DNA of 64,000 nucleotides, taken from NCBI RefSeq assembly GCF_900002575.1, contig NZ_LN650648.1, forward strand, positions 682,001 to 746,000. The letters run 5' to 3'. Of the stretch, positions 3,151 through 38,492 are shown piece after piece (within the stretch, counting starts at the first letter, position 1; every line of letters begins with the position of its first letter). The DNA is from Romboutsia hominis. Lineage in GTDB: Bacteria; Bacillota; Clostridia; Peptostreptococcales; Peptostreptococcaceae. The notes beneath the pieces are model-generated. The model was not told the origin of the DNA and made no database searches. It saw only the letters and a list, made by a program, of their open reading frames with translations. A program made the position numbers and the translations under genes.

Positions 3151-4092
3151 ATGAAATGGACTGAAATAACAATAAAAACTTCAACAGAAGCAGTTGAAGC
3201 TATAACTAATATATTATACGAACACAATGTAGGAGGAGTATCTATAGAAGATCCTAAAGACTTCAAATTCCAAAAGAAAAATGAATTTGATTGGGATTTC
3301 GTTGAAGAAGAAATATTTAATAGTGGATACGACGGAGTAATAATAAAAACATACATAACAGAAGAAAGAGATGTAAGTGAAGATATTAAATCTATAAAAG
3401 AAAGAATAGATGGATTAAAAGAGTTCGGTATAGATGTAGGAGAAGCAATAGTTGAATTATCATACGTTGATGAAGAAGACTGGGCTAATGAATGGAAAAA
3501 CTACTACAAGCCAACTAAAATAGGAGAAAAAATAGTAGTAAAACCAACTTGGGAAGAATATGAAGCTGGTGATGAAGACCTTATAATAGAGCTAGATCCA
3601 GGTATGGCATTTGGGACAGGAACTCACGAAACTACAAGCATGTGTATAAGAGAATTAGAAAAATACGTTAAGCCTGAAAGTAAAGTATTTGATATCGGAT
3701 GTGGAAGTGGGATACTTGCAATAGCGGCTGCAAAGCTTGGAGCTAGAGATGTACTAGCAGTTGACTTAGACGAAGTAGCAGTTAAAGTATCTAAAGAAAA
3801 TATAGAACTTAACAATGTATCTAAAAGTGTTAAAGCACTTCACGGTAATTTAATGGAAGTTGTAACTGATAAAGCTGATATAGTAGTTGCAAACATAATA
3901 GCAGATATAATAAAATTATTAGCTAAAGATATCAAAAACTTTATGAAAGATGATGCAGTATTTATATCTTCAGGAATAATACATGCAAAGGTTGATGAAG
4001 TTAAAGAAGCACTAGTTTCAAATGGATTAGAAATAGTACATGTAGAATCTTTAGGTGAGTGGAATGCTATAGTATCTAAAATAGCTAAGTAG
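3151..4092 (+). CDS. prmA: Ribosomal protein L11 methyltransferase
   Basis: A 313-residue SAM-dependent methyltransferase that trimethylates lysines of ribosomal protein L11. The N-terminal substrate-recognition domain (about 1-150) is followed by the conserved DPGMAFGTGTHETT segment, then the class I methyltransferase core with motif I (VFDIGCGSGILAIAAAKLGA), an acidic turn (AVDLDEVAV) and the catalytic-site strand VVANIIADII. Length matches the family. It begins a tight run with rsmE (8-base gap) and mtaB (no gap), so the three are almost certainly one transcript for RNA and ribosome modification. Confidence 0.95.
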   Translation: MKWTEITIKTSTEAVEAITNILYEHNVGGVSIEDPKDFKFQKKNEFDWDFVEEEIFNSGYDGVIIKTYITEERDVSEDIKSIKERIDGLKEFGIDVGEAIVELSYVDEEDWANEWKNYYKPTKIGEKIVVKPTWEEYEAGDEDLIIELDPGMAFGTGTHETTSMCIRELEKYVKPESKVFDIGCGSGILAIAAAKLGARDVLAVDLDEVAVKVSKENIELNNVSKSVKALHGNLMEVVTDKADIVVANIIADIIKLLAKDIKNFMKDDAVFISSGIIHAKVDEVKEALVSNGLEIVHVESLGEWNAIVSKIAK

Positions 4093-33913: not shown

Positions 33914-35038
33914 ATGAATAAACAAAGTATAAAAATGGGATTGGTAGCAACATCAATATTACTTCCAATGTCAGTTAGTGTATCAAATGCTGATACTATA
34001 CAAAAAGCAGACATAGAATATAAAACGATAACTGGAAATTCGGTAAACTTTAGAAAAGGACCAAGTACTAGCTATAGTTCAATTGGTAAGTTTTATAAAG
34101 GAGACAAAGTAGAGTACATAGGAAAAAGTGGAGAATGGGTAAATGTTAAGTATAATGGAAAAGTAGGATACGTACATGGAAATTACGTTTCAAACTCTTC
34201 TGAAGGAAATACATCAGATAATACTATAAAATACAATAAGATAGTAAATGCAAGTTCCTTAAATGTTAGAAAAGGTCCGGGGACTAGTTACTCAAAGATA
34301 GATTCAATACCTAATGGAACAAAAGTAGGAGTAATATCTGAGTCAAATGGGTGGGCAAAGGTAAGTTATAATGGACAAATAGGATATGTATCAAGTCAAT
34401 ATTTAAAGAGCAGTGAAGCTTCAACTACACCAAGTGAAGAAAAAGTAAAATATAATAGAAAAGTAAATGCAAGCTCACTAAATATTAGAAAAGGACCAAG
34501 CACAAGCCACTCAAAAATAGGTTCAATACCATATGGTGCTGAGGTAGGAGTAATATTAGAATCAAATGGATGGGCAAAGATAAAATACAATGGACAAATA
34601 GGATATGTATCAAGCGCGTATTTAACAGCAGATATATCTAATGGTGGTGGAACAACATCTCAAAGCGCCGACAAGGTAATCAATTTAGCACAAACATTAC
34701 TAGGAAAGCCATATGTATGGGGAGCAGAAGGGCCTAATAGTTTTGATTGCTCAGGATTTACTCAATATGTATTTAAAAATTCTGCGGGGATAAATATACC
34801 AAGGGTATCAAAAGATCAATCAAAATTTGGACAATATGTAAATAAAAATAATCTTCAAAAAGGAGATTTAATATTTTTTGATACAAGTGGTTCAAATGAT
34901 GGAGATGTAAGTCATGTTGGGATATATATGGGTAATAATAAAATGATACATGCATCATCGAGTAAAGGAAAAGTAGTTATATCTGAATTAAGTAATTATT
35001 ATAATAATGCATATGTAAATGCAAGAAGAGTCTTATAA
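33914..35038 (+). CDS. Secreted SH3-domain NlpC/P60 peptidoglycan endopeptidase
   Basis: A 374-residue cell-wall enzyme. A signal peptide (about 1-26, ending SVSNADT) is followed by three bacterial SH3 domains (about 35-92, 107-163, 181-236), each with LNVRKGPG/FRKGPS-type starts and WAKVSYNGQIGYVSS-type ends, then a short linker and an NlpC/P60 domain with the triad Cys279 (FDCSGF), His334 (SHVGIY) and His346 (MIHAS). It should cut within stem peptides, SH3 domains giving wall binding. Repeats two and three are much alike, suggesting recent duplication. Translation may depend on the hairpin leader; no close ribosome site exists. Confidence 0.93.
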   Translation: MNKQSIKMGLVATSILLPMSVSVSNADTIQKADIEYKTITGNSVNFRKGPSTSYSSIGKFYKGDKVEYIGKSGEWVNVKYNGKVGYVHGNYVSNSSEGNTSDNTIKYNKIVNASSLNVRKGPGTSYSKIDSIPNGTKVGVISESNGWAKVSYNGQIGYVSSQYLKSSEASTTPSEEKVKYNRKVNASSLNIRKGPSTSHSKIGSIPYGAEVGVILESNGWAKIKYNGQIGYVSSAYLTADISNGGGTTSQSADKVINLAQTLLGKPYVWGAEGPNSFDCSGFTQYVFKNSAGINIPRVSKDQSKFGQYVNKNNLQKGDLIFFDTSGSNDGDVSHVGIYMGNNKMIHASSSKGKVVISELSNYYNNAYVNARRVL

Positions 35039-35064
35039 ATAACTTAAAAATTTTCTCACTATAT

Positions 35065-35104
35065 AAAAAATAGATGTATTATTAATAAAACATCTATTTT
35101 TTTT
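35065..35104 (+). terminator. Intrinsic terminator after the NlpC/P60 gene
   Basis: 13-bp stem (AAAAAATAGATGT) with a 12-base loop, ending in eight T. Confidence 0.85.
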
Positions 35105-35287
35105 ATGCAATGATTTTATATTAGGCATAAAATAATTGATTGTTTATGAATATATACAGATGAATAAATTTGAAAATAAAAAAATCTAATATATTAAGTA
35201 AAAAGATTTTTGATGAATAAATAATCTAATATATTGAAAATAATATATAGTGTAAATTAAATTTATAGATTAACAAGGAGTGTTTCT

Positions 35288-35695
35288 ATGGGTGTAGTAA
35301 CAGATTTTTATAAATTCAAATACAGAAAAGATGACTACTATTTAGATGTATTTATAAATAAAGGAGCAATACCAAATATTGAATCAGCCTTAAATGAAAT
35401 TCTAAGTGATAAATATATACCTAAAGACTCTCAATGTGCATATATGAAGTTAAAAGAATTATTTCAAGAGGCAAGAAAAAGTACAAGTCATGTTTATGCT
35501 GAAATAAAAATACACAAATGTTATTTGAGATATATAAATAATTTATATCTATATTTTTTTGATAGAAAAGAGTATAGAGCTCTGAAAGAGTTAAGCGATT
35601 ATTTTCATTTATATATAGTAGAGGATATAGAAAATATAGCAAATTTTATAACACTAAGTGAAGACGTAAAGATAAGGATACTTTCAAATATATAA
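35288..35695 (+). CDS. Hypothetical protein, 135 aa
   Basis: Not recognised. A mainly helical, tyrosine- and lysine-rich cytosolic protein. It begins GVVTDFYKFKYRKDDYYLDV and holds segments such as YMKLKELFQEARKS and DIENIANFITLSEDVKI. There is no signal peptide or membrane helix. AAGGAG precedes the ATG. It lies just upstream of the two microprotein genes, separated from them by a long palindrome, and near the cotJ operon; a sporulation link is only a guess. Confidence 0.7.
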   Translation: MGVVTDFYKFKYRKDDYYLDVFINKGAIPNIESALNEILSDKYIPKDSQCAYMKLKELFQEARKSTSHVYAEIKIHKCYLRYINNLYLYFFDRKEYRALKELSDYFHLYIVEDIENIANFITLSEDVKIRILSNI

Positions 35696-35739
35696 AATAA
35701 TTAAATTCAAAAAAAGGAAATATTTCTAAATATCTTGCA

Positions 35740-35796
35740 TATAATACATTAAATATGAAACATTTAAAATTAATCCTTCATATTTAATGTATTATA
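35740..35796 (+). repeat. 20-bp perfect inverted repeat ahead of the first microprotein gene
   Basis: TATAATACATTAAATATGAA and its exact complement, separated by 17 bases. The 3' arm ends 4 bases before the GAAGGAGGG ribosome site. No T run follows on either strand, so it is not a normal terminator. It could end the previous mRNA poorly, act as an operator, or form a leader stem. Confidence 0.7.
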
Positions 35797-35817
35797 AAAA
35801 GAAGGAGGGATGTTAAT

Positions 35818-35901
35818 TTGGATGATAGATTAGAATTAGTAATGTTTGGATATGAAAAAGAAATAGAATATGATTATACACCAGATAGTGGAAGTGAATA
35901 A
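35818..35901 (+). CDS. Microprotein A, 27 aa
   Basis: A 27-codon ORF starting at TTG, 8 bases after a strong AAGGAGGG. It reads MDDRLELVMFGYEKEIEYDY followed by TPDSGSE. It is acidic and shares its length and 12 of 27 residues with the next small ORF, including F10, YEKE at 12-15, YDY at 18-20, P22 and the final Glu. That level of agreement between two short ORFs, each with its own ribosome site, indicates a real gene pair. I know no family for it. Confidence 0.65.
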   Translation: MDDRLELVMFGYEKEIEYDYTPDSGSE

Positions 35902-36005
35902 AGTAAAAAGGATTTTTCAAGTTTAGATTAAGTAAAGAATAAAATAAAAATTATCTTGCTAAATCAACTAATATAATTTATATAAATAAAAAATGGAGGT
36001 AAAAA

Positions 36006-36089
36006 ATGGAGAGAAATATAGATTTGATGATATTTGAATATGAAAAGGAAATGGCATATGATTATATACCTGAACATGAAAATGAATAA
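36006..36089 (+). CDS. Microprotein B, 27 aa, paralogue of A
   Basis: A 27-codon ORF with ATG start, 5 bases after TGGAGGT. It reads MERNIDLMIFEYEKEMAYDY followed by IPEHENE. Shared with microprotein A: the hydrophobic LxxF core, YEKE, YDY, proline 22, and the acidic end. There is no cysteine or signal peptide, so a secreted pheromone or lantibiotic type is unlikely. Location between a cell-wall hydrolase and the cotJ coat operon suggests, but does not show, a sporulation role. Confidence 0.65.
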   Translation: MERNIDLMIFEYEKEMAYDYIPEHENE

Positions 36090-36133
36090 TAATTAAAGCA
36101 TAAGTAATATTATATATCAAAAGGAGAAATAAA

Positions 36134-36160
36134 GTGAATATAGATAATGAATCCGATTAA
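36134..36160 (+). other. Possible third micro-ORF, 8 codons
   Basis: GTG AAT ATA GAT AAT GAA TCC GAT TAA after AAAAGGAGAAA. It is acidic like the C-termini of the two upstream microproteins and ends inside the terminator. It may be a truncated third copy or chance. Confidence 0.25.
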
Positions 36161-36201
36161 AAAGGAGCTATCTCAAAGAAAATAGAGTTTAGCTCCTTTT
36201 T
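36159..36201 (+). terminator. Intrinsic terminator after the microprotein genes
   Basis: AAAAAGGAGCTA and its complement with a 19-base loop, ending in five T. Confidence 0.85.
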
Positions 36202-36247
36202 ATTATAAGTTAAATTATAAAGTTTTAAATTAAAAAATATTATACAT

Positions 36248-36288
36248 AAAAAATGTCTAAAGCAAATCAAAAGGTTGCCTTAGACATT
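36248..36288 (-). terminator. Intrinsic terminator of the cotJ operon
   Basis: On the minus strand AATGTCTAAGGCAA pairs with TTGCTTTAGACATT (one mismatch) and is followed by six T. Confidence 0.85.
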
Positions 36289-36305
36289 AAAAACAAATTT
36301 ATAGA

Positions 36306-36878
36306 TTAAAATGTATGTTTACTTTCTTCAAAATCATAAACGTCCATCAAAGCTTCCCCAAATCTTTGATAATGAGTAATTTCTCTTTGACCTAAAAATC
36401 TTAAAACTTCTATTATATCAGCGTCATCAGTTAGATTTATAAGTTGATAATAGGTAGCTAGTGCTTTTTGTTCAGCGGCCATATCCTCATGTAAGTCAGT
36501 AACGGCATTTCCCATAACAGCAATAGGACAAACACTAAATGGATTTCCAGTTGAATCTGTTGGATATATACCAAATCCATTTTGAGCATAATTAGATCCA
36601 AGTCCTGCTTCTTCTAACTCAGTAGGAGTAGCATCATATGTTAGTTGATAAACCATAGTAGCTACCATTTCAACATGTGCTAATTCCTCTGTTCCGATAT
36701 CAGTTAAAAGTGCTTTAGTTTTCCCTGTAGGCATAGTATATCTTTGACTAAGATATCTTAGGGCAGCTGCTAACTCTCCATTAGGTCCACCAAATTGAGT
36801 TATAAGATATTTAGCCATAGTTATATCCTTAGTTTTAAGATTAACAGGATGTTGTAATGTTTTTTGATATATCCACAT
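36306..36878 (-). CDS. cotJC: Spore coat protein CotJC (manganese catalase family)
   Basis: A 190-residue member of the manganese catalase family. It begins MWIYQKTLQHPVNLKTKD and shows the di-metal site pattern: the glutamates of AELAAALRYLSQRYTMP and ELAHVEMVATMVYQL, later DMAAEQKALATYYQL and REITHYQRF. It is shorter than catalytic Mn catalases, as usual for CotJC. It sits in the spore coat, perhaps for oxidative protection. Third gene of cotJA-cotJB-cotJC, 21 bases after cotJB, with AAGGAGG before its ATG. Confidence 0.95.
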   Translation of the reverse strand: MWIYQKTLQHPVNLKTKDITMAKYLITQFGGPNGELAAALRYLSQRYTMPTGKTKALLTDIGTEELAHVEMVATMVYQLTYDATPTELEEAGLGSNYAQNGFGIYPTDSTGNPFSVCPIAVMGNAVTDLHEDMAAEQKALATYYQLINLTDDADIIEVLRFLGQREITHYQRFGEALMDVYDFEESKHTF

Positions 36879-36899
36879 AAATTAAATCCTCCTTAATTA

Positions 36900-37163
36900 T
36901 TAGTCGTTAAATTCTCTTTCCCAAGGCCATGGGCTTTCTACCCATCTAAAAGGATACTTGCTAGGTGAAAATCCAAAGTTAGTTAAAGGTCCATACTTAT
37001 TTTCATATAAGCATCTTGCTTCTAAAAATTGATTACATAGAGAATTAAAAGTAGCAATTGCATTTTTATCACAAGGATTATTATCTAGATATAAATTCAT
37101 ATCTAAACATGCAAAACAAAGCTCTTGAATTTTTCGCATTAATTCATTTCTAGAGTCACTCAT
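36900..37163 (-). CDS. cotJB: Spore coat protein CotJB
   Basis: An 87-residue protein of the CotJB family. Helical N-terminus (ELMRKIQELCFACLDMNLYL), the conserved DNNPCDKNAIATFNSL segment, and a C-terminus rich in Pro and Trp (FRWVESPWPWE). It is required with CotJC for assembly of the coat layer in Bacillus; here the gene lies between cotJA (2-base gap) and cotJC. Confidence 0.93.
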   Translation of the reverse strand: MSDSRNELMRKIQELCFACLDMNLYLDNNPCDKNAIATFNSLCNQFLEARCLYENKYGPLTNFGFSPSKYPFRWVESPWPWEREFND

Positions 37164-37165
37164 AA

Positions 37166-37375
37166 TTATTCTCTACCTCCTTTTTCTCTTAGTGGAGTTG
37201 AATATAAATTCTTGTTATAAATTGGAGAATCTATTAGATATAGCTCAGGGAATAGAGTACCACGTTGAAAGGCTTTAGGTAAGCTATACGTTTTAGTGTA
37301 GACTTGACGCTTAATATAAGGTCTAGCTAAGGAATATCTAGGTTCCATACAGTTTTTTCTATTATCATCTTGCAT
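37166..37375 (-). CDS. cotJA: Spore coat associated protein CotJA
   Basis: A 69-residue, basic, proline- and tyrosine-rich protein of the CotJA family: SLARPYIKRQVYTKTYSLPK and AFQRGTLFPELYLIDSPIY. First gene of the coat operon, with AGGAGG before its ATG. In Bacillus the operon is transcribed by sigma-E in the mother cell; I could not fix a -35/-10 pair here with confidence. Confidence 0.88.
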   Translation of the reverse strand: MQDDNRKNCMEPRYSLARPYIKRQVYTKTYSLPKAFQRGTLFPELYLIDSPIYNKNLYSTPLREKGGRE

Positions 37376-37628
37376 AAATTAAACCTCCTGTCTTAAAGTG
37401 AGAATGAACTTAATAATAATATATTGTAGTTGCAAAAAAGTGTTACTAATAAATATATAAACTATATTTAGAGCAAAAATACACATTAAAATAAATGAGT
37501 AGATTACTTGAATTATTAGCTTAATATATGATAAAATAATTTGCATGTTTTATTAAAAATAGTCTAAATTTGAAATTTAATGAAAATGAATTATAGATAT
37601 AACCAAAATATAAATAAGAGGTGATAGT

Positions 37629-38492
37629 ATGAGCAACTTAGCGGGAAAAGGCTGTGAGATAATAGTACCTTTTGATGAAAGACAACCATTAAAAGATATA
37701 GAAAGAAGTATAATAAAGAGATATAGAAAACATTTATGGTCAAAATTTATAAAAGCTATAAGAGATTATAATCTAGTAGAAGAAGGCGATAAAATAGCTG
37801 TTGCAATATCTGGAGGAAAAGATAGTCTACTTATGGCTAAGATGTTTCAAGAGTTAAAAAGACATGGACAAGTAAACTTTGAATTAGAGTTTATAGCTAT
37901 GGATCCAGGATATCATGAAGACATAAGAAAACTACTTGTAGATAACTGTGAATACTTAGATATACCAATACACTTATTTGACTCAAGAATATTTGAAATA
38001 GCAGATGAAATAGCTAAAGATTATCCATGTTATATGTGTGCAAGAATGAGAAGAGGAGCACTATACTCTAAAGCTGAAGAACTAGGGTGTAATAAGTTAG
38101 CACTTGGACATCATTATGATGACGTTATAGAAACAACAATGCTTAACCTACTATGTTCGGCTAATTTTAAAACAATGTTACCTAAACTACATTCAACAAA
38201 CTTTGATGGTATACAAATAATAAGACCACTTTATTATATAAGAGAAGAGCATATAGTAAGATTTATACAAAATAGTGGTATATGGCCACTAAATTGTGCA
38301 TGTATGGTAGCGGCTAAAAAGACTGGTAATAAGAGATATGAAATAAAAGATTTAATCAAAAGCCTTGGAGAAAACTTTAAGGATGTAGAAAAATCAATAT
38401 TTAAAGCAGCGGAAAATGTAAATATAGATTCTGTACTTGGATGGCAAAAAGATGGAGTAAAGCATTCATTTATGGAAAATTTTGAAGACTAA
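37629..38492 (+). CDS. TtcA-like tRNA 2-thiocytidine biosynthesis protein
   Basis: A 287-residue PP-loop ATPase of the TtcA/TtuA class, which puts sulfur on a tRNA base through an Fe-S cluster. The PP-loop is VAISGGKDSLLM; CYMCARMRRGALYSKAEELG (20) carries the first two cluster cysteines; LALGHHYDDVIETTMLNLL follows, and NCAC near residue 220 supplies the third. It lies opposite the cotJ operon with its own ribosome site (AGAGGTG). TtcA itself modifies C32; the exact base in this organism is inferred. Confidence 0.88.
   Translation: MSNLAGKGCEIIVPFDERQPLKDIERSIIKRYRKHLWSKFIKAIRDYNLVEEGDKIAVAISGGKDSLLMAKMFQELKRHGQVNFELEFIAMDPGYHEDIRKLLVDNCEYLDIPIHLFDSRIFEIADEIAKDYPCYMCARMRRGALYSKAEELGCNKLALGHHYDDVIETTMLNLLCSANFKTMLPKLHSTNFDGIQIIRPLYYIREEHIVRFIQNSGIWPLNCACMVAAKKTGNKRYEIKDLIKSLGENFKDVEKSIFKAAENVNIDSVLGWQKDGVKHSFMENFED

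Follow-up and report, generated by a model that had tools for sequence, protein, structure and literature searches.

A lineage-specific family of 27-residue microproteins encoded beside the cotJ operon of Romboutsia hominis, with a possible role in the spore envelope

Two tandem ORFs belong to a conserved microprotein family

Two ORFs of only 27 codons lie beside a spore-coat operon in Romboutsia hominis. Do they encode real proteins, and if so, what might these proteins do? We addressed these questions in a window of 64,000 nucleotides (contig NZ_LN650648.1, positions 682,001 to 746,000 of the forward strand), to which all coordinates refer unless another contig is named. ORF1 (35818-35901, plus strand) starts with TTG and is preceded by a Shine-Dalgarno sequence, AAGGAGGG, at 35802-35809. 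ORF2 (36006-36089, plus strand) starts with ATG behind a GGAGG at 35995-35999. Reading the sequence agreed with the initial annotation, which had described two 27-codon ORFs with ribosome-binding sites on one strand, 104 nt apart. The same annotation had counted 12 identical positions out of 27. This number holds in an ungapped alignment if the initiator is included (a TTG codon in ORF1); with the start excluded, 11 of 26 positions are identical, a score that none of 200,000 shuffles of one peptide reached (the maximum was 10).

The initial annotation took the ORFs for paralogues in a true peptide family and named similar ORFs in related genomes, disrupting stops and dN/dS as ways of checking this. 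A profile of ORF1 and ORF2 (A1) matched 19 of 71 Peptostreptococcaceae genomes at E values up to 0.1; four of these matches (G014, G056, G001 and G019, E 0.04-0.07) lie inside frames of 716-1431 aa and were rejected as chance. A profile built from 22 members (A2), which include ORF1 (E 1.3e-11) and ORF2 (E 7.1e-12), found 30 copies, each with E ≤1.2e-7, in 15 of the 71 genomes and 7 of 23 genera. Carrier genomes contain one to four copies, tandem pairs included. Six more A2 matches in the 71 genomes were weak (E 0.10-0.49). Among the weak matches, that in G070 is a 37-aa frame that lacks the promoter-like block described below, and a scripted frame search gave no family-like frame in G056 or G007. 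The source genome has two copies in total by A2; an apparent third, a 78% DNA match of ORF1, is a chance match that sits, as judged by eye, within methylmalonyl-CoA mutase-like genes and their neighbours.

Wider searches led back to the same lineage. Among 297 genomes of the order, 16 matched at E up to 0.01, and these were the same 15 carriers and one chance match; a distant match in G220 (E 0.0097) lies within a 564-aa frame and was rejected. Among 391 evenly drawn genomes of the class, matches at E up to 0.001 came from two genomes only, both known carriers. A scan of the contigs of 84,980 species confirmed 11 loci, in Romboutsia weinsteinii, R. sedimentorum and R. lituseburensis and in Faecalimicrobium dakarense, Clostridium sp. 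CCUG 7971, [Eubacterium] tenue, Paraclostridium benzoelyticum, P. ghonii and Peptostreptococcaceae bacterium VA2.

The family is under strong purifying selection in its carriers, some spore-formers related to Clostridioides. None of the 30 matches has an internal stop, and one copy has ATA at its start codon. When nine close pairs were compared, differences were found at 29 of 115 synonymous and 15 of 587 nonsynonymous sites (dN/dS 0.085, Fisher P 2e-14); two of the nine are paralogue pairs, and a tenth pair, in which a 26-aa copy is one codon out of register, was dropped (the ten-pair value is 0.23). A pool of every pair with no more than 20 differences has a pN/pS of 0.33, which is saturated and drawn from non-independent pairs. 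The low ratio in the nine close pairs means that the family is translated and that selection acts on its sequence. This selection and the presence of homologues in 14 other genomes also mean that the ORF pair is not a product of chance. We firmly conclude that ORF1 and ORF2 encode two microproteins of a lineage-specific family whose peptides are 27 residues long, acidic and rich in tyrosine.

With one decayed copy left out, the remaining 29 copies give 26 distinct intact peptides. These align without internal gaps, and 24 of them have exactly 27 residues. The A2 consensus is MenxLxLVYFxYExExdYDYsPDYdxE. Y12, Y18, Y20 and P22 are invariant in all 26 and E13, E15, D19, D23 and E27 are almost so; both window ORFs carry the four invariant residues along with E13, E15, D19, E27 and an acidic D/E at 23. 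Net charge ranges from -6 to -11, and each peptide has three to six tyrosines. Even positions from 10 to 24 are hydrophobic or aromatic and odd positions from 13 to 27 are acidic, the exceptions being 11 (G/D/E), 14 (mixed) and 21 (S/T/A). A beta-type hydrophobic moment gave P values of 0.0007 for residues 8-25 (a segment picked after the alignment was seen), 0.00095 for 10-24, 0.015 for 5-27, 0.026 for all 27 and 0.11 for 5-18. An alpha-type moment was significant in none of these five segments (P 0.64-0.94; 0.81 for 8-25). The alternation and the beta-type moment suggest that residues 10-27 could form an extended strand that presents tyrosines on one side and acids on the other.

The view that no described family fits these peptides stood up in every library that we searched. 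Against Pfam-A (E up to 10), the 22 peptides gave one chance match, to DUF4828 at 0.067, and none to CotJA, CotJB or Mn_catalase or to models of known spore microproteins, those of the SpoVM type included. NCBIfam held no credible relative, and none of the 22 matched PHROGs. In PADLOC one peptide of the 22 matched Cas2_II at 0.047, and the searches placed no peptide in a toxin, defence or phage family. The best PDB profile match had an E value of 7.3 over nine residues. Five short strings from the family were absent from the open-access papers searched, a scope outside which most subscription journals fall, and literature listings on dityrosine and the spore coat and on Peptostreptococcaceae microproteins yielded nothing on the family.

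An independent unit in several genomic settings

The ORF pair lies between a plus-strand gene for a 135-aa protein (35288-35695), which has no Pfam family and matches NCBIfam only far below cut-off, and the minus-strand genes cotJC (36306-36878, Mn catalase family; Pfam Mn_catalase 4.3e-52), cotJB (36900-37163; CotJB 7.6e-27) and cotJA (37166-37375; CotJA 8.4e-13). Thus, as had been proposed, the pair faces cotJABC, with cotJC convergent to it. A terminator common to both ORFs had also been proposed, and we located a terminator-like hairpin at 36158-36202 on the plus strand (fold -19.2 kcal/mol, z -5.2, with none of 200 shuffles as good). A simple terminator scan of 35300-37800 returned no site; it misses this hairpin because the loop exceeds the length that the scan allows.

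Directly 5' of the terminator is a Shine-Dalgarno sequence (36121-36126) followed by a GTG-started ORF of eight codons (36134-36160), both on the plus strand. Of 21 terminal units, 16 have an SD-led frame of eight codons here, and in 12 of these no earlier ATG competes with it; the frame has five codons in three of the remaining units and nine codons in one, and one unit has no frame. In the whole window, 20 SD-led starts open frames of 12 codons or fewer, and only two of these frames, 36134-36160 among them, have exactly eight. The encoded peptides vary widely (VNIDNESD, VLNSERNN, VSIKEHHK, VHTKSLNT and VLRKIKLK). The 8-codon ORF is probably genuine.

At the 5' end of the unit, a perfect 20-bp inverted repeat (35740-35759 and 35777-35796) overlaps the -10 element (fold -19.9 kcal/mol, z -5.0). 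We rejected the idea that every unit contains a conserved 5' RNA hairpin, as leaders cut after the -10 reach z ≤-2 in only 5 of 21 units; the window leader cut in this way has a z of -0.48. An Rfam search over 35000-37700 gave no credible match (best E 0.69, far below gathering).

Is the unit tied to its neighbours? The 135-aa gene is the ancestral neighbour of cotJC at the window site. It occurs in 31 of the 71 genomes, and 16 of those 31 lack any peptide unit; by eye, terminator-like sequence stands between the gene and the unit in several. We therefore rejected it as a partner. Eleven of the 30 copies (in 10 genomes) lie behind the 135-aa gene and 19 lie elsewhere. In nine of the 10 genomes with a unit at this site, cotJC comes next and is convergent (read by eye outside the window). 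Of the 20 genomes in which the site was read, 11 have both the 135-aa gene and a convergent cotJC but no unit, a count that leaves out nine of 29 loci where a scripted search found no 135-aa frame. Sister genera differ in the presence of the unit at one conserved site.

The other settings are varied; Pfam matches from a single locus per setting identify their metabolic genes. Four genomes of the Paraclostridium group were read, and each has a tandem pair behind a lactate/malate dehydrogenase gene; a fifth genome of the group (G027) also has a pair. Six copies belong to an oxaloacetate-decarboxylase beta-subunit setting; one of these is decayed and another lies at a contig start with its upstream gene out of view. 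One copy follows a Na+/glutamate symporter gene, and two are at other places, in one case after the gene for a lacto-N-biose phosphorylase. These varied settings mean that the unit is independent of any single neighbour. It is an independent, relocating unit outside the cotJ operon.

Two loci record changes within the family. The decayed copy (G053:C18, minus strand, around 3395-3472), behind its oxaloacetate-decarboxylase-like beta-subunit gene, has ATA in place of the start codon and a degenerate upstream block. In R. sedimentorum (locus L039, 437-2245), the symporter gene separates two near-identical copies, the second without the promoter block, as if it had been inserted into a tandem pair.

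Although the orientation towards cotJ was confirmed, cotJ as a meaningful partner was not supported. Besides the 19 copies elsewhere and the 11 sites without a unit, the promoter block of the peptide unit was absent upstream of cotJA at the six loci that we inspected by eye, and co-regulation was not seen in these leaders. The cotJ operon is the unit's nearest neighbour in the window, yet the two have no sequence relation and different upstream blocks.

The promoter-like block and the likely time of expression

A promoter-like block precedes the pair at 35716-35746 on the plus strand. It consists of a G at -21 (35716) and TTGCATATAATA at 35735-35746, within which the -10 element, CATATAATA, occupies 35738-35746. 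Across the family, TGCATATNNT occurs within 110 nt 5' of the first ORF in 21 of 22 distinct units, compared with 61 of 11,000 dinucleotide shuffles and one of 48 window genes; the block was first spotted when the DNA around 29 copies was inspected by eye, and these are the sequences in which it was then counted; the T at -1, the T at +8 and the G at -21 lie outside the search string. The G at -21, that is, 21 bases before the block's own G, is present in the same 21 units, and the window block likewise combines TGCATATNNT with this G. The one unit of the 22 that lacks the block is the second R. sedimentorum copy, behind the symporter gene.

The -10 element is of the CATAnnnTA type. It reads GCATATNNTA in 26 of 28 rows and GCATATAATT in the other two, the rows representing 21 distinct promoters and having been retrieved by searching for GCATAT; in most promoters of the unit it is CATATNNTA. 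Excerpts of a study of Clostridium difficile give CATATAAT and CATATTAT as mother-cell -10 boxes, with a -35 of ATA for sigmaE and AC for sigmaK (PMC3789822). The unit's -35 region is conserved as G(G/T)(A/C)AA(T/A)TT. It fits neither the sigmaK AC nor the sigmaE ATA clearly; a C stands at the place of the AC (-16) in 4 of 27 rows.

The distribution of the family can be compared with that of spoIVA, which is present in all 15 carriers; none of the 17 genomes that lack spoIVA has the peptide (Fisher P 0.015, uncorrected for kinship). As 39 spoIVA-bearing Peptostreptococcaceae genomes lack the peptide, it must be dispensable for sporulation in general. Taking the promoter-like block and this distribution together, sporulating cells are likely to express the peptide in the mother cell, from a promoter of the sigmaE/sigmaK type.

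The leaders of spoIVA itself, read by eye in Peptostreptococcaceae, contain ...ATATAAT.. followed by TTAAGAA. Over 20 genomes (L170-L189) they are conserved as (T)GTAATA(A/T)T ... AATATA(A/C)TTTA(T/A)TAAGAA ... GCRGGAGGG.

Elsewhere in the source genome, the nearest copy of the extended block (two mismatches) stands 5' of a gene for a 61-aa protein; two further sites with two mismatches precede or sit in unrelated genes. The 12-base core TTGCATATNNTA occurs at 55 sites in the genome, and 21 of the 30 examined are inside long frames, so we rejected a regulon defined by the core alone. The 61-aa family (G000:C1:524552-525063) comprises membrane proteins of 61-64 aa with the pattern MLDR-F/LFG..GGAWWII.., has three to four copies in most carriers and gave no Pfam or NCBIfam match above cut-off. 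It occurs in 53 of the 71 genomes and spoIVA in 54, a difference of one genome. Like the 27-aa unit, it is small, multicopy and preceded by the same -10 block with a TTAARAGnGAAA-like leader. However, it is a different protein, and its -35 carries a sigmaK-type AC, which is not clearly seen in that of the peptide. It is likely to be an unnamed spore protein family. At another site (G000:C1:511276-511301, minus strand), TTGCATATACTATAG is followed by a long hairpin (tgtaagagaaa...tttctcttaca) with no ORF close behind, which might be a small RNA transcribed from a promoter of sporulation type.

What might the peptide do?

Judged from sequence features, the family would by kind be placed among the sporulation microproteins that are encoded alone, like SpoVM and CmpA, as a member of neither family. 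SpoVM is a 26-aa mother-cell microprotein of Bacillus and Clostridia that forms an amphipathic alpha-helix. The 27-aa peptide resembles it in standing alone and in being nearly equal in length, the role in sporulation being SpoVM's. The two differ in that the 27-aa peptide has no alpha-type moment but a beta-type one, and a net charge of -6 to -11. SpoVM acts with SpoIVA in coat assembly, according to passages of PMC5607322.

The explanation that we tentatively prefer is that the mother cell makes the microprotein, which would take part in assembly of the spore envelope as an extended strand. The gene would be a small independent transcription unit made of a promoter-like block of its own, a single 27-aa ORF or a pair, in most cases the 8-codon ORF, and a terminator. 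Copies of this unit, or the unit itself, would have come to lie between other genes at several places. Transcription would take place in the mother cell during sporulation, from the putative sigmaE/sigmaK-type promoter. We propose that the tyrosine/hydrophobic face might then stack on, or add a strand to, a forming spore-envelope protein, which is the weakest step of the proposal, with the acidic face turned toward water or cations. The strand might extend the sheet of a partner or stack with copies of itself. The peptide would thus help to build, or be a structural part of, the coat or exosporium, where tyrosines near the oxidative enzymes of the coat might become cross-linked. A bolder form of this proposal, which we regard as quite unlikely, is a relocating mini-operon whose two-faced beta-strand peptide self-assembles and polymerises or cross-links into the spore envelope; here the 8-codon ORF would place a ribosome before the terminator and the peptide that it encodes would be irrelevant.

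The main rival is a regulatory microprotein that is no building block: made in the mother cell, it would bind one soluble partner, such as a protease adaptor, a kinase or a morphogenetic ATPase, and tune sporulation as CmpA does in Bacillus. The consulted portion of PMC5607322 describes CmpA as a ClpXP adaptor for mislocalised SpoIVA that is restricted to Bacillales and has no homologue in Clostridia, which would leave its role vacant there. CmpA, a mother-cell sporulation protein, is small and encoded alone, as is the 27-aa peptide, which could be its functional counterpart; the two are set apart by that description of CmpA as Bacillales-only. The fixed length, the invariant Y12, Y18, Y20 and P22 and the near-invariant acids would suit a defined binding surface. 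However, no partner gene travels with the unit, whose neighbours vary, and a copy number of one to four with tandem pairs fits a dosage-dependent material at least equally well. We regard such a regulator as possible, if somewhat doubtful. The upstream genes raise the alternative of a vegetative microprotein that modulates fermentation or Na+-coupled enzymes, given the copies behind lactate/malate dehydrogenase, oxaloacetate-decarboxylase-type beta-subunit, Na+/glutamate symporter and lacto-N-biose phosphorylase genes and, in particular, the tandem pair behind the dehydrogenase gene in all four genomes read from the Paraclostridium group. This is unlikely, as these enzymes share no pathway step, the 11 copies at the 135-aa site follow that gene instead, a promoter-like block separates ORF and upstream gene in 21 of 22 units, and no carrier lacks spoIVA.

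The unit could also be a small mobile or selfish cassette that persists by spreading, its peptide serving the unit itself, through addiction or immunity, and not the spore. Occupation of several unrelated sites, sister genera with and without the unit at a site, tandem copies and the symporter gene between two R. sedimentorum copies would all agree with this. Yet we recognised no recombinase and no terminal repeats, and the peptide had no match in 72,556 plasmid and 50,697 phage records (tblastn, E up to 1) or in IMG/VR. The sites also look stable within genera, and purifying selection on the peptide is strong. We therefore consider a cassette very unlikely. As short SD-led ORFs are common here, with 20 of up to 12 codons in the window, one might finally suspect chance ORFs or a leader peptide for a downstream gene. 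The dN/dS of 0.085 and the 30 homologues exclude chance. In the window, the next gene after the terminator is the convergent cotJC, so nothing downstream on the same strand is left for a leader to control, and we give this explanation almost no weight.

To our knowledge, few coat factors are common to clostridia and Bacillus. Proteins of 27 residues slip past most gene callers and family libraries, and the five that we searched (Pfam, NCBIfam, PHROGs, PADLOC and PDB) all lack the present family. What it provides is a selected family defined by sequence: its length is fixed, its physical pattern is clear, and there are natural pairs of genomes that have or lack the unit at one site. These properties make the role of a microprotein in clostridial spore formation directly testable.
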